Source of the DNA: a virus
IMG/VR virus record: IMGVR_UViG_3300033551_000049
Span: 1-21,792 of that record
Length of the DNA: 21,792 nt
Reading direction: 5' to 3' (one strand)
The position numbers and the translations under genes are program-made. Under the pieces are notes generated by a model. It was not told the origin of the DNA. It was given only the letters and a program-made list of their open reading frames with translations, and made no database searches. Each line of letters starts with the position of its first letter. The first letter of the stretch is position 1. This document shows, piece after piece, positions 2,701 through 20,323 of the stretch.

Positions 2701-4638
2701 ATGGAAACACGTGCGTGGTCTACCTTAACCATCAAATCGTTTGATGAGAATAAGCGAACGTTCACCGGCATAGCGACCACGCCGGTCACCGATCGACAGG
2801 AAGATATTGTTGATCCAAAGGGTGGCATTTTCACGTTGCCTCTTTCGTTTTTGTATCATCACGATAGCAAGCAACCAATTGGATTGATTACTAAAGCACT
2901 GGTTACCAGTGCTGGCATTCAGATCGAAGGCTATGTTGAGCGAGTAGAGGCTCCGGCAACGTTGAAAGAGCGATTTGATGTTGCGTGGACGGAGATGAAG
3001 CTTGGCATTTTGCGCGGCCTTTCGGTTGGATTTAAGGCGCTCGAGGTGGAACGCATTAAGGATTCGTTTGGGTATCACATCAAGAAGTGGAATTGGTTTG
3101 AACTGTCGGCGGTAACAATTCCTGCCAATCAGGAAGCCACGATTTTAACCGTTAAGTCTATGGACGAAATGCAGATGCGCTCCGCGTCAGGAGCTATGCA
3201 TCATAGCAACGTCCAACCATCTCCGGGCGTCGCCGGCAAATCTGGAAGAGGGAATCAAATGAAGACGTTACAGGAAGAGATTCAAGATGCTGCGAACAAG
3301 CGGGCGTCGAACATGGCGCGTGCTGAAGAGATTTCCAGCGCGACGCAAGGCGGTACGATGGATGAGGCTCAGCAAGAAGAGTATGACACTCTGATTTCTG
3401 AGATCAAGTCCATTGACAAGGACATTGTTCGCAAAAAGGAACTGCAAGTCCTGAAGGCGACGGAAGCTGTTCCGATTACGCCCGCGGCAGTAGCGACGCC
3501 AGTGGCCGCTGCGGAAACGCGGAATACTCCGGTGGCACCTACGCCGCGCGTGGAATGGGGTAAGTCTCGGCTGGCCAAAGGGATGGGCTTTACGCGCCTG
3601 TCGATTTGTCTGGCAAAGGCCAAGGGTGACAGCGCTCTGGCGATGGAATATGCCAAGGGCTATCGGGATACGCCGGAAGTGGAGCAGGCCGTGCGAGCCG
3701 CGATTTATGCTAAGGCGGCTGTTGCGGCAGGCACCACAACCGACACAACTTGGGCTGCTCCTCTGGTAGTTTACCAGAGTCTTGCGTCAGAGTATGTGGA
3801 GCTGCTGCGCCCTGCGACGATCATCGGGAAGATTCCGGGGATCCGCAATGTGCCGTTCAATGTTAGCATTCCGCGCACAACTGCAGGCACGACATCACAG
3901 TGGGTGGGTGAAGATGATCCTAAGCCAGTTTCGCGCATGTCGCTGGAAACGATCACCCTTGGCCACAACAAGATCGCGACCATTGTCGTGCTGTCGGAAG
4001 AACTGGTGCAAGACTCCTCGCCTGCTGCGGAGGGGCTTGTTCAGGCTGACATGCTGGCGTCGATTGCGGCATACAGCGACGCGCAGTTCATCGACCCAAC
4101 GGTTGCCGCGTCTGGCACTATCCGTCCGGCGTCGATTACCAATGGCCTGACGACCCACAACATGACTGGTACTGCTGTTGCCAACGTTATCACCGACATG
4201 CAAACGCTGATGGGTGATCTCGTGGCTGCGAATATTCCGTTTACTGACGTTGTTTGGGTGATGCATCCGCGCTCGGCACTGTATCTAAGCGGGCTGCTGT
4301 CGCCGCTGGGTACTGCGCAATTCCCGGGCATTAACGTCAATGGTGGAACGTTCTTTGGTTTCCCGGTGATTACCAGCGCATCTGTTCCGATTGACACTGG
4401 TGCTGATACTTACATTATCCTGATTGCTGGGTCTGAGATTCTGCTTGCAGAGTCTGGCATGATGGTTGATGTATCGCGGGAAGCCAGTGTGCAGATGGAC
4501 AGCGCACCAAGCGATTCTGCAGCGAGTCTGATTAGCTTGTGGCAGAAGAACCTTGTTGGGCTGCGTGCGGAACGGCGCATCAGCTATCGCCGTCGGCGTG
4601 ATGCTGGTGTAAGCGTTCTGAAAGCAGTTAGCTACTGA
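2701..4638 (+). CDS. prohead protease fused to HK97-type major capsid protein
   Basis: A 645-aa fusion of maturation protease and capsid subunit. Residues 1-160 match the HK97 prohead-protease (U35/S78) pattern: TGIATTPVTDRQEDIVDPKG near 22-41, a candidate catalytic His in LYHHDSKQPIG (H53 or H54), a candidate nucleophile Ser in GILRGLSVGF (S108), and FELSAVTIPANQEA at 133-146. Residues about 187-250 are charged and helical, like the scaffolding delta domain removed on maturation. A Ala/Pro/Thr-rich linker (about 252-283) precedes the HK97 fold, including ATIIGKIPG, GEDDPKP, IATIVVLSEELVQDS, MHPRSALYL and FFGFPVITS. AAGGAG at 2689-2694 supports the start. A second strong start inside the gene (ATG 3259, residue 187) could make free capsid protein of 459 aa. 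Confidence 0.93.
   Translation: METRAWSTLTIKSFDENKRTFTGIATTPVTDRQEDIVDPKGGIFTLPLSFLYHHDSKQPIGLITKALVTSAGIQIEGYVERVEAPATLKERFDVAWTEMKLGILRGLSVGFKALEVERIKDSFGYHIKKWNWFELSAVTIPANQEATILTVKSMDEMQMRSASGAMHHSNVQPSPGVAGKSGRGNQMKTLQEEIQDAANKRASNMARAEEISSATQGGTMDEAQQEEYDTLISEIKSIDKDIVRKKELQVLKATEAVPITPAAVATPVAAAETRNTPVAPTPRVEWGKSRLAKGMGFTRLSICLAKAKGDSALAMEYAKGYRDTPEVEQAVRAAIYAKAAVAAGTTTDTTWAAPLVVYQSLASEYVELLRPATIIGKIPGIRNVPFNVSIPRTTAGTTSQWVGEDDPKPVSRMSLETITLGHNKIATIVVLSEELVQDSSPAAEGLVQADMLASIAAYSDAQFIDPTVAASGTIRPASITNGLTTHNMTGTAVANVITDMQTLMGDLVAANIPFTDVVWVMHPRSALYLSGLLSPLGTAQFPGINVNGGTFFGFPVITSASVPIDTGADTYIILIAGSEILLAESGMMVDVSREASVQMDSAPSDSAASLISLWQKNLVGLRAERRISYRRRRDAGVSVLKAVSY
3246..3261 (+). promoter_or_regulatory. 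candidate internal ribosome binding site and start for free capsid protein
   Basis: The sequence GAAGAGGG ends at 3252 and is followed by a 6-base spacer and an in-frame ATG at 3259-3261 (residue 187 of the fusion). The GAGG core and the spacing are as good as those of the recognised genes here. The position is where an unfused HK97 capsid gene would begin: MKTLQEEIQDAANKR opens a charged, helical delta-like domain. Initiation here would yield a 459-aa capsid precursor in excess over the fused form. Seen directly: motif, spacing and frame. Inferred: that it is used. Confidence 0.45.
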
Positions 4639-4859: not shown

Positions 4860-6247
4860 ACTTGCTCGGATATCAAATCACGAAGGCGGCACCGCCAACA
4901 GCCACGCCTGTGCCATCACCATCACGAAGCAGGACGCTTTTCCAGACTGTTCGGGAAAGTTTCACTGGTGCTTGGCAAAGGAATGTGGAGGTGGAATCAA
5001 CAGAGAATTTGTTGGCGTTCTCTGCTGTTTATTCCTGTATATCGTTGATTTCTGATGATATCAGCAAATTACGCATTAAGCTGGTAGCGCAGGATGATGA
5101 TAATATTTGGAATGAAATTGATGGGTTTTCGCCTTACAATGCGGTGCTGATAAAGCCGAACAGATTTCAAACGCGCATTCAGTTTTTGTCGCAATGGATT
5201 ACATCCAAGCTTATGTATGGCAATACATACATACTTAAGGGCGATTATGATTTGCGCGGAATAGTTACTGGATTGTATATCCTCGATCCACGATTGGTGA
5301 CTCCGCTTGTTGCTGATGATGGCAGTGTTTGGTATCAGCTGCGTCGTGACTACCTTACTGGAGTCAATAAGGATATTACAATTCCAGCAAGTGAGATCAT
5401 TCATGATCGTGCTATTTGCCTATTTCACCCACTGATGGGTGTTTCTCCAATCTTTGCGTGTGGAATTACGACGACGCAAGGTCGTAAGATTCAGCAAAAC
5501 AGCGCCAAATTCTTTGAAAACATGTCGAGGCCGTCTGGTCAGTTGACTGCGCCAGGTGAAATTAGCACATCAACGGCGGAAAGGCTGAAGCGGGAGTTTG
5601 AAGAGAATTTTAGCGGCGGCAACATTGGGCGCATGTTTGTTGGTGGTGATGGCCTTAAATACGAAGGCTTTACCATTCCGCCAGTAGAAGCTCAGATGAT
5701 TGAGCAACTTGAATGGACGGTGCAAGACGTGGCGCGGTGCTTTCACGTGCCACTGCACAAGATTGGCGCAGGGCAAAATGTTACATTTTCCAATATTGCT
5801 GCGCTAAACCAAGACTACTATTCGCAAACGCTGCAAGTGCTGATCGAAGCGATTGAGTTGTTATTGGATGAAGGATTGGCAGTTCCAGCACCAATGGGCA
5901 CGGAATTAGACTTGGAAGGATTGCTACGGATGGATCCGCTGGCCCGTGCTGAAGTGAATCAGAAGAATGTTACATCTGGTGTGTGGGCACCGAATGAAGC
6001 GAGATTGATTGACAATCTTAAGCCTGTCACAGGTGGCAATATACCGTTTATGCAAAAGCAAAATGTCCCAATCAGCATTTTGTACAAAACCCCAGTGGAT
6101 GTGCCGCCGTCGCTACCTGCGCCCGCCGTTCCTGTCCCAGTTCCGGAGTTGGCTCCACCACCGACTACGGACAAGGCATTTGACATATTCATGGAAGATG
6201 TTGATGAATATGTTGGGTTACTGCGGAAGGGCTTAATTAAATCATGA
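4856..6247 (+). CDS. phage portal protein, HK97 type
   Basis: Dodecameric vertex protein through which DNA enters and leaves the capsid and onto which the packaging motor docks. The 463-aa length and pattern fit the HK97-type portal family: a conserved opening near residues 51-75 ([20 protein letters not shown]), a second block [17 protein letters not shown]-like acidic and Gly segments ([13 protein letters not shown]), the stem region [17 protein letters not shown], and a crown part with [16 protein letters not shown]. The C-terminus after about residue 415 is a Pro/Val-rich stretch, perhaps a flexible tail, and ends with a short helical segment. It is coupled to the preceding gene by ATGA and to the next gene by ATGA (6244-6247). 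Its position after the capsid gene is unusual, as HK97-type clusters normally run terminase, portal, protease, capsid. Confidence 0.93.
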
Positions 6248-7716
6248 GCGGCGAACTCAAGGCCATTGCTGAAAAGTCTGCTGAGATATTCAAGGAGTAC
6301 CTGACGCAGGAATTGCTGCCGTTCCTTGATCGCTTTGAACAAATCGAGGGCAATGCCAAGCAGTTGCAATTGAATTTTGATGCGTTATCTCGCGAACCAG
6401 GCCCACAAGGTCCGCAAGGGGCAAAAGGCATAAATGGTGGATATGGTCCGCAAGGGCTGGCCGGACAAAAGGGCCTGGAAGGTCCGCAAGGCGCAAAAGG
6501 CATGGATGGTGGTGCTGGTGCGCAAGGCCCACAAGGTATCAAGGGATTAATTGGGGAACGTGGTCCGCAAGGCCCACAAGGCACTAAGGGCATAGATGGC
6601 GGCGCTGGCGCGCAGGGTCCACAAGGAGATAAGGGTTTAGATGGCGCTATTGGTGCGCAAGGCGCGCAAGGTTTGGAGGGCAGTGTTGGTGAACAAGGCC
6701 CGCAAGGCGACAAAGGTTTAGATGGTGGCATCGGTGCGCAAGGTCCGCAAGGAGATAAGGGTTTAGATGGACTCGCCGGTCCAGAAGGCGCAGCCGGTCC
6801 GCAAGGCGACAAAGGGCTGGATGGACTCGCCGGTCCAGAAGGCGCAGCCGGTCCGCAAGGTGATAAGGGTTTAGATGGCGGAATTGGCGCGCAAGGTGCT
6901 GTTGGGCCGCAAGGTGATAAAGGTTTGGATGGACTCGCCGGTCCGGAAGGTGCAGCAGGGCCACAAGGTGAGAAAGGGCTGGATGGCACTATTGGTCCGC
7001 AAGGTGAGGCCGGTGTTCAAGGCGATAGGGGTTTTGCTGGTGCACAAGGCGAGAAAGGTTTGGATGGATCTGCTGGCCCACAAGGCGTTGCTGGTCCGCA
7101 AGGGGTTAAAGGGCTGACTGGAGATGCCGGACTGCAAGGTAAAAGTGCTTATGAAATTGCTAAGTCTCATGGATTTGCTGGTAATGAATTGGATTGGTTA
7201 CAATCATTTCGCGGTCCGCAAGGAGTGACAGGACAAAAGGGGGAGGATGGCAAGGATGCAGTTGAACTAAAGATTCTACGCCATATTGACCAGACGCGTA
7301 GTTATCCGCGTGGTACATATGCGTTACACGATGGGGCATTTGTTTACGCGGCGCGGATTACTGGTCCAGTTAAGTCTGGACAGCCAATCGAAGAGGCGGG
7401 CTGGGAAGTGCTGATCGATGGAGAATCTGACTTTGACATTGAGCAAGGTGAAGACTTGCGCACGTTTAAGATGATTCGAACGATGGCAAGCGGCCGCAAA
7501 ATCGAGAAAAGCTTCAAGATTCCTGTTGTGCTGGATCGTGGTATTTGGAAACATGCGAAATATGAGCGTGGCGATGCAGTAACGCGGGATGGTTCGCAGT
7601 GGATTGCTCAGTGTGACACAGAAACAACACCTGGAGATTCGGCGCATTGGCGTCTGGCCATTAAGCGTGGTCGTGATGGTAAAGATACCACTAACGGCAG
7701 CAGCGCGAGGCGCTAA
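6244..7716 (+). CDS. collagen-like virion protein with C-terminal carbohydrate-binding-like modules
   Basis: A 490-aa predicted fibre. Residues 1-50 form a charged helix ([15 protein letters not shown]...LDRFEQIEG), likely a coiled coil that could seed trimerisation. Residues 53-298 are 82 uninterrupted Gly-X-Y triplets, rich in GPQ, GDK and GLD, expected to fold as a collagen triple helix. Then comes [21 protein letters not shown], a short motif I know from phage tail-fibre proteins, then another short Gly-X-Y patch. Two similar beta modules follow, about residues 345-395 and 433-480. The second ([21 protein letters not shown]...[12 protein letters not shown]) resembles the small CBM5/12 chitin-binding fold with aromatic residues at the usual places. 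The start overlaps the portal stop (ATGA). Placement next to the portal suggests a head or neck fibre; a tail fibre is the alternative. Confidence 0.85.
6400..7137 (+). repeat. Gly-X-Y collagen repeat region of the 490-aa protein
   Basis: 82 perfect 9-base triplets without interruption. Within it, 6760-7029 is five consecutive 54-base units (18 residues each, GLD-x-x-GPE/GAQ-GAx-GPQ-GDK/GEK plan). Units 1 (6760-6813) and 2 (6814-6867) are nearly identical at the DNA level, with differences mostly in third codon positions. Unit 4 (6922-6975) has the same residues but more base changes. Such repeats can gain or lose units by slippage without breaking the frame. Confidence 0.9.
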
Positions 7717-7719
7717 TCA

Positions 7720-10455
7720 ATGGTGCGACTACTCGCGCCGCAGGGTAGTTCCGGCTATGAAACAGCAGACGGAAAATTTTATCCTGCGCTGAATGGAATT
7801 GTTGAGGTCCCAGATGATTTGGTTCCTGAATTAGCGGAGGCTGGATACACATTTGCGCCGCCGCCAGCAGAGCCCACTGAGGTTGTTGTTAAAGAGTTGC
7901 AAATTGTTCGTGTTTTTGGTCCGCAAGGTCCGCAAGGTCCGCAAGGTGATATTGGTCCGGAAGGTATTCCTGGGCTAGATGGTAGTCGCGGATCACAGGG
8001 TGCGCAGGGTGCGCAGGGCGCAGCCATCAAAGGTGATCGCGGCCCACAAGGCTTAAAGGGCGAGACCGGGTCGCAAGGCTCTCCTGGAGCCATAGGTAAT
8101 CCAGGCATAGGCGGAGGTCTCGGTCCGCAAGGTCCGCAAGGCCCAGCAGGAGGTCCGCAAGGTCCGCAAGGCTCTCCAGGAGCACAAGGCCCAGCCGGCG
8201 CTGATGGTCCAGCTGGTGGTCCGCAAGGTCCGCAGGGTGCAGCAGGGGTCTCCGGTAGTCAAGGACCACAGGGCTCAGCCGGTACTCAAGGGAGTCAAGG
8301 TGCCGCCGGAGCACAAGGCGCTGCTGGCGCGCAGGGCGCTGCCGGTATTCAGGGCGCTGCCGGTACTCAAGGTCCGCAAGGCGCGACCGGCGCTGGAACG
8401 CAAGGTGCCGCGGGAGCACAAGGCCAACAGGGCGCGGCCGGAGCACAGGGTCCACAAGGAGCGACCGGCGCTGGAACGCAAGGGGCTGCTGGAGCTCAAG
8501 GGCCACAAGGTGCTGCAGGTACGCAAGGGGCCGCGGGAGCACAAGGGCCAGCCGGTAGTGGCGCACAAGGCGCTGCGGGCGCACAAGGGCCACAAGGAGC
8601 AGCTGGGGCACAAGGCGCTGATGGGACCCAAGGTCCGCAAGGCGCGACCGGCGCTGGAACGCAAGGTCCGCAAGGTGCTGCAGGTACGCAAGGAACCCAA
8701 GGCAGTCAAGGCGTCACAGGATCAACTGGTACGCAGGGGCCACAGGGTGCAGCTGGTGGTACTGGTACGCAGGGGCCACAGGGTTTCCAGGGAACACAAG
8801 GCGCAATAGGTGTTCCAGGGATTGACGGGCTGGATGGGGCTCGTGGCGTGCAGGGCGTGCAAGGTAGTCAAGGCACGCAAGGGTTGCAAGGCGCTACCGG
8901 CGCAGGAACACAAGGTCCGCAAGGAGACCAAGGCGCACAAGGTACGGCAGGCTCCGCCGGTACGCAAGGACCACAAGGCAATCCAGGCACCCAAGGAAAT
9001 CAGGGCGCGACTGGAGGGACAGGTTCCCAAGGAACACAGGGCGCGCAAGGCGCTACCGGTGCTGGAACACAAGGTCCGCAAGGGGACCAGGGTACGCAGG
9101 GTGCCACTGGCGCAGGTACGCAAGGCCCACAAGGTTTTCAGGGCGCGGCGGGCGGTGCCGGTACTCAGGGTCCGCAGGGCAATGCCGGAATTGACGGGCT
9201 GGAAGGTCCACAAGGTTTCCAAGGCACGCAAGGCACAGCAGGCGGGACTGGTACTCAGGGTCCGCAAGGCTTTCAAGGAACACCCGGGACGCAGGGGACG
9301 CAAGGCGTTGCCGGAATTGACGGGCTGGAAGGCTCACAGGGTTTTCAAGGTGTTGCTGGCGCTCAAGGTCCGCAAGGATTTCAAGGAACAGCAGGAACAG
9401 CAGGTGGCACTGGCACTCAAGGTCCACAGGGTTTTCAAGGCGCGGCTGGCGGTGTGGGTACACAAGGTACACAGGGCTTTCAAGGCACACAAGGTGTTGC
9501 AGGAATTGACGGCCTGGAAGGTTCACAGGGTTTTCAGGGTGTTACGGGTGCTCAAGGCCCACAGGGTTTTCAAGGAACGCAAGGAACGGCTGGTGGCACT
9601 GGCACTCAGGGTCCGCAGGGCGCAGCCGGAGGTACTGGAACACAAGGCTTTCAAGGCACACAGGGCAATGCAGGACTTGATGGGCTGGAAGGGTCACAGG
9701 GTTTTCAGGGCGCAGCGGGCGCTCAAGGTCCGCAAGGCGCAGCGGGCGGTACGGGAACACAAGGGCCACAAGGCGCAGCGGGCGGGGCTGGGACGCAAGG
9801 CTTTCAAGGTACACAAGGCAATGCAGGGCTTGATGGTCTGGAAGGTCCACAGGGTTTTCAGGGCACGCAAGGCTTTCAAGGAAACCAAGGGACGGCGGGC
9901 ACGACTGGGACACAAGGTCCGCAAGGCTTTCAGGGCACACAGGGCACGACTGGCGCTGGAACGCAAGGTGTTCCTGGCCTAGATGGCATAGATGGAGCGC
10001 AAGGTCCGCAGGGTTCGCAAGGCGCAGCAGGCGCGGCCCCCAGTGGTACTGGATATGTGAGGGTCGTTGGTGGTGTAGTGCAGAGCCCAGCGAATAAGGA
10101 TTTGGTAACTATTCGCACGGCGCAGTTTGATGGTGAGGTAGCGCTCGGGAATTTGGGCGCAGCCGAAACGCTGGACTTTTCGACTGGAGCGTTCCAGTAT
10201 GGCACTTTGGACCAGAACTGTGCCATTACCGTCAACACGGGTAGCTTCCCGGGAATGGGACGTTACCAATTGCGGCTTATCAACAACGGCACTTTCACTG
10301 TGACGTGGGCAGGAACTGGCTATAGTGCGAGTCGCTGGATTGGTGCTACTTCTGCACCTGCCGTCAACACAGCAACTAATGGAGAGACGATTATTACTTT
10401 CTTTTGGAATACAACTAATGCAACCCAAGTGCTTGGCCGGGTAGGCGCAGTATAA
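7720..10455 (+). CDS. long collagen-like virion fibre protein
   Basis: A 911-aa predicted fibre with three parts. Residues 1-66 are a small globular module ([20 protein letters not shown], then [18 protein letters not shown]) that reads like a stand-alone small phage head protein fused to the fibre and could anchor it. Residues 67 to about 773 are Gly-X-Y repeats rich in GPQ, GTQ, GFQ and GAA, with scattered one- or two-residue breaks such as GAGTQG, GGPQG and AAIKG that would kink the triple helix. Residues about 774-911 form a beta-rich C-terminal domain ([18 protein letters not shown]...[16 protein letters not shown]) like phage fibre tips that end in a beta sandwich or trimer cap. The start lies 3 bases after the previous stop, with GAGG about 10 bases upstream. 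There is no Cys knot; X/Y positions are rich in Gln in place of the usual second Pro. Confidence 0.85.
7918..10038 (+). repeat. Gly-X-Y collagen repeat region of the 911-aa protein
   Basis: About 2.1 kb of collagen-type coding repeat, opening with three identical 9-base units (7918-7944). A longer-range element encoding G-I/L-D-G-L-E/D-G recurs at 8818, 9187, 9313, 9502, 9673 and 9826. The gaps of 369, 126, 189, 171 and 153 are all multiples of 9, so the triplet phase is kept throughout this part. Breaks such as GAGTQG shift the phase elsewhere. Between the recurring elements are near-repeats of [10 protein letters not shown] type. Confidence 0.88.
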
Positions 10456-10476: not shown

Positions 10477-10941
10477 ATGTCGAAGTTCATCATCGGAGTG
10501 ACCAAGGGAATAGCTAAGGTGTATCCCTATGGACAAGGCAGCGAAGTTTCTAAGGTGCTGAAAGAGAGCGAAGCGTTGCTGTGCCAGGTGCCGGTTGGAG
10601 ACCATGTTGAGCCAGTTGCTACCGACCCAAATAAGCCAGTGGCTGCTGATCCAAAGATTGCGCAGTCGACAAAGGATTTGCTGAAGGGTATGGCTGACGA
10701 GGATAAGGCTGCGCCAGCTGCCGGAGTCGCCAATGATGAGCCACCAAGCAGCCGGACCGGCACGATCTTAGTAGCGGTAACGGAAGGCAAGGTGACTGTG
10801 CGCACGTACCATGAGACGGAGTTTTCAGAGCAAGTAGTGGAGCAAGGCGCATCGGCTTCGGTTGACGTCACGGAATCGAATCGCATTACGGTTGCGGTGT
10901 ATGAAGCTGCGCCGGTGGTCGATCCAAGGAAGGACAAATGA
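10477..10941 (+). CDS. small beta-rich protein of the structural cluster, function unknown
   Basis: 154-aa protein with a strong ribosome site, AAGGAG at 10465-10470, 6 bases before the ATG. It appears to be two similar beta-rich halves joined by an Ala/Asp/Pro/Lys-rich linker (about residues 48-90). The halves share a pattern: VTKGIAKVYPY... in the first and VTEGKVTVRTY... in the second, each followed by a Glu/Ser/Val stretch. There is no signal peptide, membrane segment or catalytic motif. Its place between the fibre gene and a glycosyltransferase gene suggests a virion or fibre-associated protein, but this is context only. Its stop overlaps the next start (ATGA at 10938-10941). Confidence 0.75.
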   Translation: MSKFIIGVTKGIAKVYPYGQGSEVSKVLKESEALLCQVPVGDHVEPVATDPNKPVAADPKIAQSTKDLLKGMADEDKAAPAAGVANDEPPSSRTGTILVAVTEGKVTVRTYHETEFSEQVVEQGASASVDVTESNRITVAVYEAAPVVDPRKDK

Positions 10942-12164
10942 CGTCCCTTGCTATTTTTACTCCTTCGAATGATGCGAAGTACCTGCGTCCACTTTATGAC
11001 AGTCTTTTGGCGCAAAGTGATCAAGATTGGACCTGGACGTTGTTGCACAATAATGGGGGCACGCCGATTTCGATTGAAGATAAGCGTGTAACTCAACATT
11101 CTTTACACACAGCACCGGAATGGGTTGGCCCGCTTAAAGCATATGTGTGTCAGATGTTGCAAGAAGACGTTTTGATGGAGGTCGATCATGACGATTTGCT
11201 CCTTCCTGATGCTGTCGCCGAGTGCAAAAAGGCATTTGCGAATCCAAAAATTGGGTTTGCCTACAGTAATGCTTTGCATGCGGATGCGGATCTTGGTAAC
11301 AAGACGGAGCACTATAGCGAGGACTTCGGTTGGAAGTATCGGAAAACGAATTTCCATGGGAATCTATTGGAAGAACCAATCTCCTTTGATCCGTCGCCTG
11401 CTGCGCTCTCTCGCATTTGGTACGCACCGAATCACTTCCGCGCCTTTCGCCGTTCGATCTATGAGAAGGTAGGTGGTTATCCAAGAGATATGCGCGTGCT
11501 AGATGATCAGGATCTGATGTGTCGTATGTATTTGGAAACTGAGTTTGCGCATATCGACCGTGGCCTTTACGTTTATCGTATTCACGGCAAGAACTCCTGG
11601 ATTATCCATAATCAAGAAATACAGGATAATGTTTATCGTTTGCATGATAAATATGCAGAACGTCTTGCATTGACTTGGGCGCGACGAAGCGAATTGCGTG
11701 CGTTAGAGCTTGGCGGGGCTTTTGCTAGGCATGATGGATATGAAACCGTTGACCGGCGTGGGGCGGACATTTGTTGCGATCTGGAGGCTCGTTGGCCATT
11801 TGATGATTCTTCGGTTGGCGTTATTCGTGCCTTTGATGTGTTTGAGCATTTGCCTAATTCATTGCATACGATGAGCGAATGTTATCGCGTGTTAGCGCCT
11901 GGTGGCTGGATTTTTGCGCAAGTCCCATCTACCGATGGTCGAGGGGCGTTTCAGGACCCAACGCACAAGAGTTTTTGGAATGAAAATTCTTGGCTATACT
12001 ATACGCACAGTAAGTGGGCGCAGTATATTGATACTCCTGTGCGTTTTCAACAGGCGCGGCCGAGCTATACTTCAGAAAAAGATGAGCATGGCGTTTGTTG
12101 GACTGTGGCGCATTTGATAAGCCTCAAGGATGGCTATCGGCCACCTGGACGGATTAACATTTAG
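10938..12164 (+). CDS. glycosyltransferase family 2 - methyltransferase fusion
   Basis: 408-aa two-domain enzyme. Residues 1 to about 240 look like a GT2-type (GT-A) glycosyltransferase: an N-terminal strand LAIFTPSNDAKYLRPLYDSL, the metal/nucleotide-sugar acidic motif in MEVDHDDLLLPD (D83-D86), a FRAFRRSIYEKVGGYP segment and the late acidic motif LDDQD (D189-D192). Residues about 254-408 look like a class I SAM methyltransferase (Methyltransf_11 style): ALELGG at 255-260 as a shortened motif I, VFEHLPN at 301-307, YRVLAPGGWIF at 316-326 and QDPTHKSFWNENSW. Motif I lacks the full GxGxxG, so SAM binding is less certain. Overlap with the upstream gene couples translation. GC is lower by eye than in the flanking structural genes, hinting at separate acquisition. 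The substrate is unknown; a virion protein glycan or a host surface glycan are both possible. Confidence 0.85.
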   Translation: MTSLAIFTPSNDAKYLRPLYDSLLAQSDQDWTWTLLHNNGGTPISIEDKRVTQHSLHTAPEWVGPLKAYVCQMLQEDVLMEVDHDDLLLPDAVAECKKAFANPKIGFAYSNALHADADLGNKTEHYSEDFGWKYRKTNFHGNLLEEPISFDPSPAALSRIWYAPNHFRAFRRSIYEKVGGYPRDMRVLDDQDLMCRMYLETEFAHIDRGLYVYRIHGKNSWIIHNQEIQDNVYRLHDKYAERLALTWARRSELRALELGGAFARHDGYETVDRRGADICCDLEARWPFDDSSVGVIRAFDVFEHLPNSLHTMSECYRVLAPGGWIFAQVPSTDGRGAFQDPTHKSFWNENSWLYYTHSKWAQYIDTPVRFQQARPSYTSEKDEHGVCWTVAHLISLKDGYRPPGRINI

Positions 12165-18236: not shown

Positions 18237-18447
18237 ATACGTTTTTGTTTGTCCAATCTGTCGTAAGTTCTTTACCACGGATGAACCAGGCGAGCCATTG
18301 TGTACTGGTCCCAGCGAAACGCGCGACGAGCATGAGTTGCAGGTCATGCGCCTACATGCTATAGAGCGTAAGCAAGTTCCACCACAATATGCTGAACGGC
18401 GAGCAGTTGGGAAGCTGCTCATGCCCTTTGATGAGAAAAATAGATGA
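18223..18447 (+). CDS. small zinc-finger-like protein
   Basis: 74-aa protein from the ATG at 18223, overlapping the previous gene by 14 bases. A frame extending up to 18163 exists but lies inside the previous gene. It has a CPIC pair at residues 10-13, then LCTGPSETRDEHELQVMRLHA with a further Cys and His, consistent with a C2-C-H type zinc site. I recall short phage proteins with the same CTG-S---DEHE-- VM pattern and no known function. A basic C-terminal half (ERKQVPPQYAERRAVGK) may contact nucleic acid or protein. The ribosome site is weak. The stop overlaps the next start (ATGA at 18444-18447). Confidence 0.65.
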   Translation: MSIRRYVFVCPICRKFFTTDEPGEPLCTGPSETRDEHELQVMRLHAIERKQVPPQYAERRAVGKLLMPFDEKNR

Positions 18448-19103
18448 CATATTGGAAGCCTGAACGTATCTGGAGTGGAGAACCATGCGCAATACTTGCG
18501 TCCGGACCATCAATGAATCAAAAGGTGGCTGATGCGGTAAGGCAATTCCGAACAATTGCAGTTAACAATACTTTTCGTTTGGCTTCATGGGCTGATATGT
18601 TGTATTCTGCTGATGAAAATTGGTGGAATAGTCCTAGGAATAAAGATGCTGCAGATTTCAAAGGATATCGTGTTTCTGTAACGGCCAGAGGCGCTGGTTT
18701 GCCTCTTGATGAAAATGTTTTGATTTTGAAAGGTACTGGTGTGGAAGGTTATGATCCAGAATTGGGTCATGTGCGCACCGGGAATAACAGCGGGTACCAA
18801 GCACTGCATCTTGCAGCGCAGTTAGGGTGTTCACCTATTCTGTTATGTGGTTTTGATATGCGCAGTATCAAGAATCGTCAGCACTGGCACGACAAACATG
18901 AGTATCCAATGCGCGATCACGGGGATGGAATTTATCCTGAGTGGATAAAGTCATTTAATAATTTGGCTCCTTTGCTGGAAGCGATTGGAATAAATGTTAT
19001 CAACGTCACTCCTGACAGTGCTCTTAAATGTTTTCAGAAAATGACATTAGAGGATGCGCTTGAAAGCCTATTGCATGTTGCGGTCTGCGAGCGTTTATCG
19101 TAG
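18444..19103 (+). CDS. DUF115/GT42-like Rossmann protein, putative sugar transferase
   Basis: 219-aa protein, first of a three-gene cassette. It shows a Rossmann-like N-terminal motif CAILASGPSM at residues 15-24, VNNTFRLASWADMLYSAD at 40-57, a Ser/Gly-rich turn TGNNSGYQALHLAAQLG at 112-128, PILLCGFDM at 131-139 and INVTPDSAL at 186-194. This order (G-GPS, N-T, G-SG--AL--A---G, I-L-G-D, N-TP-S-L) is shared by the DUF115 family and by GT42 sialyltransferases, which are distantly alike. It is plausibly a CMP- or NDP-sugar transferase, but a non-catalytic or pterin-enzyme-like relative cannot be excluded. It is coupled upstream by ATGA and overlaps the next gene by 50 bases. GC is lower by eye than in the structural genes. 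Confidence 0.72.
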   Translation: MTYWKPERIWSGEPCAILASGPSMNQKVADAVRQFRTIAVNNTFRLASWADMLYSADENWWNSPRNKDAADFKGYRVSVTARGAGLPLDENVLILKGTGVEGYDPELGHVRTGNNSGYQALHLAAQLGCSPILLCGFDMRSIKNRQHWHDKHEYPMRDHGDGIYPEWIKSFNNLAPLLEAIGINVINVTPDSALKCFQKMTLEDALESLLHVAVCERLS

Positions 19104-19815
19104 GGAAGTGTTCTGTAGTGGGTTGGCTCAAGCTGGTTATGCAGTGATGACTACACCATTTAATCCTAGTCCAGATGATGTGTTATTGATTTGGAATAGG
19201 TACGGACAGTTTCATGCAGAAGCAAATCGATTCGAGAAGAACGGCGCGCGCGTGCTTGTAACGGAAAACGGTTACATGCGCGATGGAATTGGTGACGGAA
19301 AATGGTATGCATTGGCTATAGGACATCACAATGGAGCAGGCCATTGGAGAGTTGGTGGGCCAGAACGGTGGGATGCGCTAAATGTTGAGATGCAACCGTG
19401 GCATGGCGGAAATGATGTTGTGATATTTGCGCAGCGTGGTATTGGTGAGAACGGAATTGCATCTCCTCGTGGTTGGGCAGAATCCGTACAGAAAAAGTAT
19501 GGCGGTCGCATACGTGCGCATCCTGGCAACAACGAGCCTGCTGTTCCATTAGCGGATGATCTTAAGAATGCACGCGCGGTTCTTACTTGGCACAGTACCG
19601 CCGCACTTTATGCACTGATGTATGGCGTGCCAGTATTTTATGCATTCCCTCAATGGATTGGTGCCTTGGCTAGCTTACCATTAAGCAAATTTGTGGAAGA
19701 TGCGCCTTGTTGTGATTCTGCTGCTAGACTGAATATGTTTCGTCGCATAATCTGGGCGCAATGGCACATAGATGAGATAGCTGATGGTACAGCATTCCGG
19801 CATCTCCTGCGTTGA
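19054..19815 (+). CDS. capsule-polysaccharide-transferase-like protein
   Basis: 253-aa protein, second of the cassette. The start is ambiguous. ATG at 19054 gives a full first beta strand (KAYCMLRSASVYRREVF) but an overlap of 50 bases; an ATG at 19075 is the alternative. Visible pattern: ENGYMRD near 71-77, an AQRG loop near 126-129, IRAHPGNN at 153-160, PLADDLKNARAVLTWHSTAALYALMYGVPVFY at 165-196. The HP-G, L-NA-AV-TW-STA---AL-YG-PV run resembles the GT-B C-terminal half of capsule synthesis (Kdo transferase-like, PF05159) and related phage proteins. It would use an activated sugar; donor and acceptor are unknown. The protein is only 253 aa, shorter than a full two-domain GT-B enzyme, so the N-terminal domain is reduced. 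Confidence 0.62.
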   Translation: MRLKAYCMLRSASVYRREVFCSGLAQAGYAVMTTPFNPSPDDVLLIWNRYGQFHAEANRFEKNGARVLVTENGYMRDGIGDGKWYALAIGHHNGAGHWRVGGPERWDALNVEMQPWHGGNDVVIFAQRGIGENGIASPRGWAESVQKKYGGRIRAHPGNNEPAVPLADDLKNARAVLTWHSTAALYALMYGVPVFYAFPQWIGALASLPLSKFVEDAPCCDSAARLNMFRRIIWAQWHIDEIADGTAFRHLLR

Positions 19816-20323
19816 TGTTGCAGAGTTTAATCGTAAGTACGTGACGCCAAAGAAGGGCAGAACATTGATTGTTGGTTCTAAGATTTACAAGACTAGAACT
19901 GATCGGCGTAAGTATTATGAAGATGCTGTAGGGATTGACATGTTTGATGGTGATGGCGTTGATCGAGTGCTCAATTTGGAAGAACCGTTACCAGATGATC
20001 TCGGAAAGTTTGCGCACATTGATTGTATCTCCGTGCTGGAGCATTCGCAGCGACCTTGGCTGCTAGCAAGTAATCTTGTGATGTTGATGGAAGAAGGTTC
20101 GACCATCTATGTTCAGGTGCCGTTTGTGTGGCGCGTACATGGTTATCCTTCAGACTATTGGCGCATGACGGTAGCTGGTGTATCATCTATCTTTGCGGGC
20201 GTGCGCTGGCGGGCAATACAAGCGACTGGCAGTGACGATAGTGGTCGCATTCCAAGTATGATGCACGGCGATAAGGTTTATTTTGCTAGGACGCAGGTCT
20301 GTGGTTTTGGGATTCGTGAGTGA
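19784..20323 (+). CDS. class I SAM-dependent methyltransferase-like protein
   Basis: 179-aa protein, third of the cassette, overlapping the previous gene by 32 bases. It has GRTLIVGSKIYKTRTDRR at 25-42 as a degenerate motif I with only one conserved Gly, VGIDMFDGDGVD at 49-60 (motif II acidic), HIDCISVLEHSQRPW at 78-92, and VPFVWRVHGYPSDYWRMT at 112-129, the Pf-f--H--P-DyWR-T run common in Methyltransf_11-type sugar or lipid methyltransferases. Motif I is atypical, so activity is less certain than fold. It may methylate the same glycan built by the two genes before it. The stop at 20323 ends the long + strand gene run before an AT-rich gap. Confidence 0.75.
   Translation: MVQHSGISCVDVAEFNRKYVTPKKGRTLIVGSKIYKTRTDRRKYYEDAVGIDMFDGDGVDRVLNLEEPLPDDLGKFAHIDCISVLEHSQRPWLLASNLVMLMEEGSTIYVQVPFVWRVHGYPSDYWRMTVAGVSSIFAGVRWRAIQATGSDDSGRIPSMMHGDKVYFARTQVCGFGIRE

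Follow-up and report, generated by a model that had tools for sequence, protein, structure and literature searches.

The stretch of DNA analyzed here (hereafter, the window) comprises 21,792 bases and is one whole IMG/VR virus record. Three open reading frames (ORFs), designated A, B, and C, occupy positions 18444-20323 and overlap end to end, A and B by 50 nt and B and C by 32 nt. A reading made from the sequence alone (the sequence-only reading) had described them as a three-gene sugar-modification cassette inside a phage structural region. The ORFs were found as claimed, and each motif string quoted for A, B, and C is present in them. Relatives of A, B (43 other sequences), and C share 26-51%, 38-57%, and 24-53% identity with them, respectively, indicating that these are conserved phage genes rather than chance ORFs. 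The features of the window discussed below are collected in Table 1.

Table 1. Features of the window considered in this study
Feature	Position	Strand	Description
Collagen-like virion protein, candidate acceptor	6244-7716	+	Matches phrog_1289 and the end of portal phrog_2271 through its C-terminal domain
Second collagen-like protein, candidate acceptor	7720-10455	+	Matches many tail-fibre/collagen PHROGs
GT2-like and methyltransferase fusion	10938-12164	+	Methyltransf_11 E 2.7e-8 (above cut-off); Glycos_transf_2 E 0.003 (below cut-off); phrog_6636 E 4e-12
Gene A	18444-19103	+	219 aa; Maf/GT42-like (DUF115, phrog_4603), predicted CMP-nonulosonate-type glycosyltransferase
Gene B	19054-19815	+	253 aa; KpsC/WbbB-fold predicted CMP-sugar transferase; RxHP present, Gly131 in place of the nucleophile Asp
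Gene C	19784-20323	+	179 aa; class I SAM-dependent methyltransferase-like

In the window, the genes for TerL, the major capsid protein (MCP), and the portal lie at least 12 kb upstream of the cassette. ORF 13143-14813 matches a virion-structural PHROG, but the ORFs nearest the cassette, both upstream and downstream, had no PHROG or NCBIfam match. The proposed position of the trio between virion genes is therefore only partly evident in the window, although it is clear in relatives (see below). NCBIfam gave zero matches for the ten window proteins searched, and a DNA-level search of the window against phage records gave no match. Near the start of the window (2701-4638), a prohead protease and the MCP are apparently fused in a single ORF. 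The GC content of the cassette is 46.5%, compared with 54.4% for the window sequence upstream of it, in line with the low GC that had been noted by eye. The portal gene (46.7%) and the GT2-methyltransferase gene (47.4%) have equally low values, however, so this property is not specific to the trio and was dropped as a sign of foreign origin.

Protein A matched phrog_4603, labeled 'alpha-2,3-sialyltransferase', with an E value of 3.8e-43 over residues 18-208 (positions 1-175 of 178 in the profile). The MptE-like family PF01973 was its sole recurrent Pfam match, with E<0.01 in 24 of 32 relatives; A itself scored 28.4 bits, under the gathering cut-off of 34.6. An AlphaFold2 model of A, built from a 32-row alignment, had a mean pLDDT of 94.9. 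VIA-align placed this model nearest to the flagellin glycosyltransferase Maf (PDB 5mu5), with the fold shared over 187 residues of the PF01973 region (Z 15.9, rmsd 3.4, 13% identity), followed by CstII (Z 12.6, rmsd 3.6, 174 aa), MptE HPPK (12.4), SteA (10.8), and mammalian sialyltransferases (9-9.7), after which scores dropped to 6.6. Foldseek alone returned low-TM Rossmann matches only, and the Maf/CstII signal came from VIA-align. A small core profile of A also reached CstII by sequence (E 0.002), and A shares an N-terminal GPS motif with the GT42 enzymes CstII and CstI. Maf is 632 aa long, whereas A corresponds to the catalytic core alone. H147 and H152, either of which may correspond to the GT42 catalytic His, are conserved in at least 90% of the relatives of A. 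Matches of A to ferritin fusion peptides were judged to be due to chance, and an IMG/VR search with A alone as the query gave no pattern match.

The initial description of A as DUF115/GT42-like is thus borne out by PHROG, profile, and fold, except that A resembles Maf more than GT42, and the GT42 fold that its model displays is common also to Maf and MptE. Maf and CstII use CMP-activated acid sugars as donors. Judging from the model, A is most likely a Maf/GT42-type transferase, a pyrophosphokinase being the chief alternative.

Family libraries gave sub-threshold matches of protein B to DUF6716 and Capsule_synth and nothing further, and no significant match to PDB sequences was obtained. The AlphaFold2 model of B had a pLDDT of 95.0, and the first 22 Foldseek rows contained only KpsC, WbbB, and KrkA, with E values from 4e-7 (KpsC) to 2e-4. 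VIA-align gave Z 12.6 over 220 aa for KpsC and 9-12.6 for the KpsC/WbbB/KrkA group, compared with 6.9 for the next unrelated fold. The model of B thus has the KpsC/WbbB fold. KpsC (GT107), WbbB (GT99), and KrkA (GT140) are retaining Kdo transferases of about 320 aa without a significant sequence match to the shorter B. They carry two motifs, (K/R)xHP, which binds CMP (PMC12887879), and QxxxD, which provides the nucleophilic Asp; WbbB and KrkA use CMP-activated acid sugars as donors (PMC9587256, PMC12887879).

The first of these motifs is present in B as RxHP (R154, H156, and P157) and is invariant in all 44 B sequences. At the QxxxD position, in the loop after the preceding strand, B has QRGIG, with Q127 in 39/44 sequences and Gly131 at the Asp position in 44/44. 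This correspondence was assigned by strand order and spacing, the profile-profile alignment being weak (hhalign of B against KpsC had a probability of 3.9 and aligned only the C-terminal 37 columns). Since the nucleophile Asp is replaced by Gly in all relatives, the double-displacement mechanism of KpsC probably does not operate in B, which may be inverting. By its model, B would not be a GT99, GT107, or GT140 enzyme as defined, having the same kind of fold but missing the defining catalytic Asp, and it probably binds CMP-sugars. Its first description as capsule-transferase-like holds for the fold but not for the catalytic Asp of the retaining Kdo transferases.

The window C protein alone matched Methyltransf_23 weakly, under the cut-off. 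A profile of seven C sequences matched UbiG-type O-methyltransferases with an E value of 2.5e-6 over 60 residues, and its relatives share conserved residues in the SVLEH and HxYPSDYWRM segments. C is thus, by profile similarity, a class I SAM methyltransferase, as had been proposed.

Distribution of the trio was examined with B patterns in IMG/VR, which yielded 196 relatives, of which 80 were kept. Among 71 distinct loci with upstream sequence, A was adjacent upstream of B in 56, elsewhere in the locus in eight, and absent from seven. All 27 distinct loci with close relatives of C had B within 1.5 kb upstream of C, and 25 of them had A. By contrast, distant relatives of C had A adjacent in 30/35 loci and B in none of the 35. 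The commonest architecture with C was A-B-C-GT4-B2-MT-GT8, where B2 is a diverged paralog of B. In the 61 loci with enough downstream sequence, we found B2 in 59, a GT8-like gene in 51, a GT4-like gene in 39, and a second methyltransferase in 35; the GT8 and methyltransferase labels were above the Pfam cut-off, and the GT4 label (Glyco_trans_1_2) was below it. B2 proteins (e.g., L002:9285-10112), which occur in nearly all long modules, mostly lack the HP motif and may, by their sequences, use another donor or be non-catalytic. A 2OG-Fe(II) oxygenase (PF13640, E 3e-17; L118:3269-3964) is encoded in six of the 61 modules and is absent from the window; its target could be a virion protein or a sugar. 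In the window itself, none of GT4, B2, MT7, and GT8 was detected next to A, B, and C.

Core head, connector, or tail genes, as identified by PHROG, were present in 38/48 B loci with ample flanking sequence and lay on both sides in 16, and the full module was usually near portal, connector, or tail genes. The trio is thus a shortened version of a phage glycan module that is widespread and has largely gone undescribed. The idea of a dedicated three-gene module is retained in the conserved order of A, B, and C and revised in its extent, which can reach seven genes or more. The sequence-only reading knew of no described phage system with this trio; the trio is not unique, as A recurs beside B and C after B. 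Two outcomes that the sequence-only reading regarded as fatal, non-transferase folds and homologs never found together or near virion genes, were not what we observed. A search of the literature, in which subscription papers were thinly covered, found no described phage module with these families.

Parts of the module are also carried by cultured phages and by a few bacterial genomes. Caulobacter jumbo phages (Dolichocephalovirinae, with genomes of about 300 kb) have A, B, B2, and a GT8-like gene in the same order, after a large tail gene and before the endolysin. This cluster, mostly annotated as hypothetical, includes an annotated methyltransferase that does not match the C profile, and a putative GT9 lies further on in CcrColossus. 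Homologs of A were found in 74 phage records, including PmgO of phage P1 and orf7 of Pseudomonas phage D3, which is flanked by head genes; the D3 and P1 homologs lie in late or head regions, and no B or C was found in the D3 and P1 loci examined. The P1 genes pmgO and pmgP (L016:4929-6115) overlap each other, and each matches the A profile, which suggests that P1 encodes two A homologs in tandem. Few bacterial genomes encode B (one of 301 Comamonadaceae and three of 398 in a phylum sample). The long module is also present on a Variovorax contig, where an insertion separates A from B; IMG/VR lists this contig as viral as well, and it is probably a prophage. Among BFVD matches, Tetraselmis virus 1 was seen to encode several B-fold proteins, of which two bear the annotation capsule polysaccharide biosynthesis.

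Two collagen-like proteins encoded upstream of the cassette are candidate acceptors. The C-terminal domain of the first aligns with positions 718-857, the C-terminus, of portal phrog_2271, a sequence match that suggests a portal-linked collagen fibre in the lineage of the window phage. Directly after the collagen-like ORFs and 6 kb upstream of the cassette lies the GT2-methyltransferase fusion, which possibly belongs to the same pathway. We compared 46 portal-anchored loci for Gly-X-Y proteins near the portal and found one in 16/17 loci with A or B and in 21/29 without them, a link that was not significant (Fisher p=0.12); the portal seeds were drawn from A/B loci, and the control is thus not fully independent. 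Because such proteins are also frequent without A or B, they are mainly a trait of the phage lineage.

From the observed genes, folds and profiles, motif conservation, and gene order, we infer the donor, acceptor, product, and timing of a pathway. We consider the chances about even that the trio is a shortened version of a late-region module by which a virion protein acquires a methylated glycan, probably of the ulosonic-acid type. In this pathway, A, with its Maf/CstII fold, and B, which combines the KpsC/WbbB fold with RxHP, would each transfer one sugar. The donor would most likely be a CMP-activated ulosonic or sialic-type acid, such as CMP-Kdo, from the Gram-negative host. C would methylate the sugar, resulting in a cap or variation, and the acceptor would most likely be a virion protein from the same operon. 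The module probably decorates the virus particle with sugars and possibly the host surface too. In favor of a virion glycan are the confident models of A and B, the invariant RxHP, the profile of C, the gene order, the flanking virion genes, and the rarity of B in bacteria. Against it, A is equally near MptE and CstII, B lacks the catalytic Asp, the profile alignment of B with KpsC is weak, the collagen acceptor is non-significant, and the searches run identified no CMP-sugar synthesis gene in the 21.8-kb record. There is precedent for such a role in PMC12363180, according to which glycosyltransferases of mycobacteriophages Che8, Corndog, and Myrna modify capsid and tail proteins, and which cites Freeman 2023 for phage glycosyltransferases that glycosylate their own capsid and tail. 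These systems have actinobacterial hosts, the passages of PMC12363180 on them do not name the present gene set, and their likeness to the module is one of described function.

Several alternatives were weighed against a virion glycan. The module could alter a glycan of the host surface, either LPS or capsule, in the course of infection or lysogeny, blocking superinfection or releasing progeny from receptors, as the capsule and LPS synthesis performed by the nearest solved relatives of B and the presence of the trio in the probable Variovorax prophage would suggest. We regard this as rather unlikely, since the genes of relatives lie among head, connector, and tail genes and not with lysogeny genes, and the module was not seen to be accompanied by any export or membrane component. 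It is less probable still that the module acts specifically on the collagen-like virion proteins, which would then undergo hydroxylation and glycosylation like animal or mimivirus collagens. The Gly-X-Y proteins do follow the portal, often precede A, and occur in nearly all A/B loci, and some modules encode the oxygenase; against this stand their frequency in relatives without A or B, the non-significant association, and the scarcity of the oxygenase, absent from the window. That A is an MptE-like pterin-type pyrophosphokinase or other non-glycosyl enzyme, with the gene set acting on a small molecule or nucleotides, fits its only recurrent Pfam match and its MptE Z score, but we consider it quite improbable given the higher score of Maf and the place of A within a module of several glycosyltransferases and methyltransferases. 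The trio is very unlikely to be neutral cargo or decayed morons left where the longer module is missing, despite its low GC and the lack of the further module genes beside it, as its three frames are open, invariant residues are kept, and the overlaps are intact. DNA hypermodification was not favored because the module lies in structural regions.

A further and more tentative proposal, which we hold to be possible rather than probable, is that B defines a new family of glycosyltransferases, being a CMP-sugar enzyme of KpsC fold that lacks the retaining nucleophile, and that A and B together make up the core of a widespread pathway for a methylated ulosonic-acid virion glycan in phages of Gram-negative hosts. 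The gene set and the altered catalytic site of B look new; phage virion glycosylation is already known. The finding is broader than first stated, comprising a widespread phage glycan module and, in B, a possible new enzyme family.

Most known cases of virion glycosylation by phage enzymes come from mycobacteriophages. If the virion-glycan interpretation is true, such glycosylation would be common outside that group, cultured Caulobacter phages included, and would be carried out by genes so far annotated mostly as hypothetical proteins or 'sialyltransferase'. B would add to the Kdo-transferase fold an enzyme needing another mechanism. Phage particles decorated with acid sugars would be predicted, and this decoration would have a bearing on their adsorption, stability, and immune recognition.
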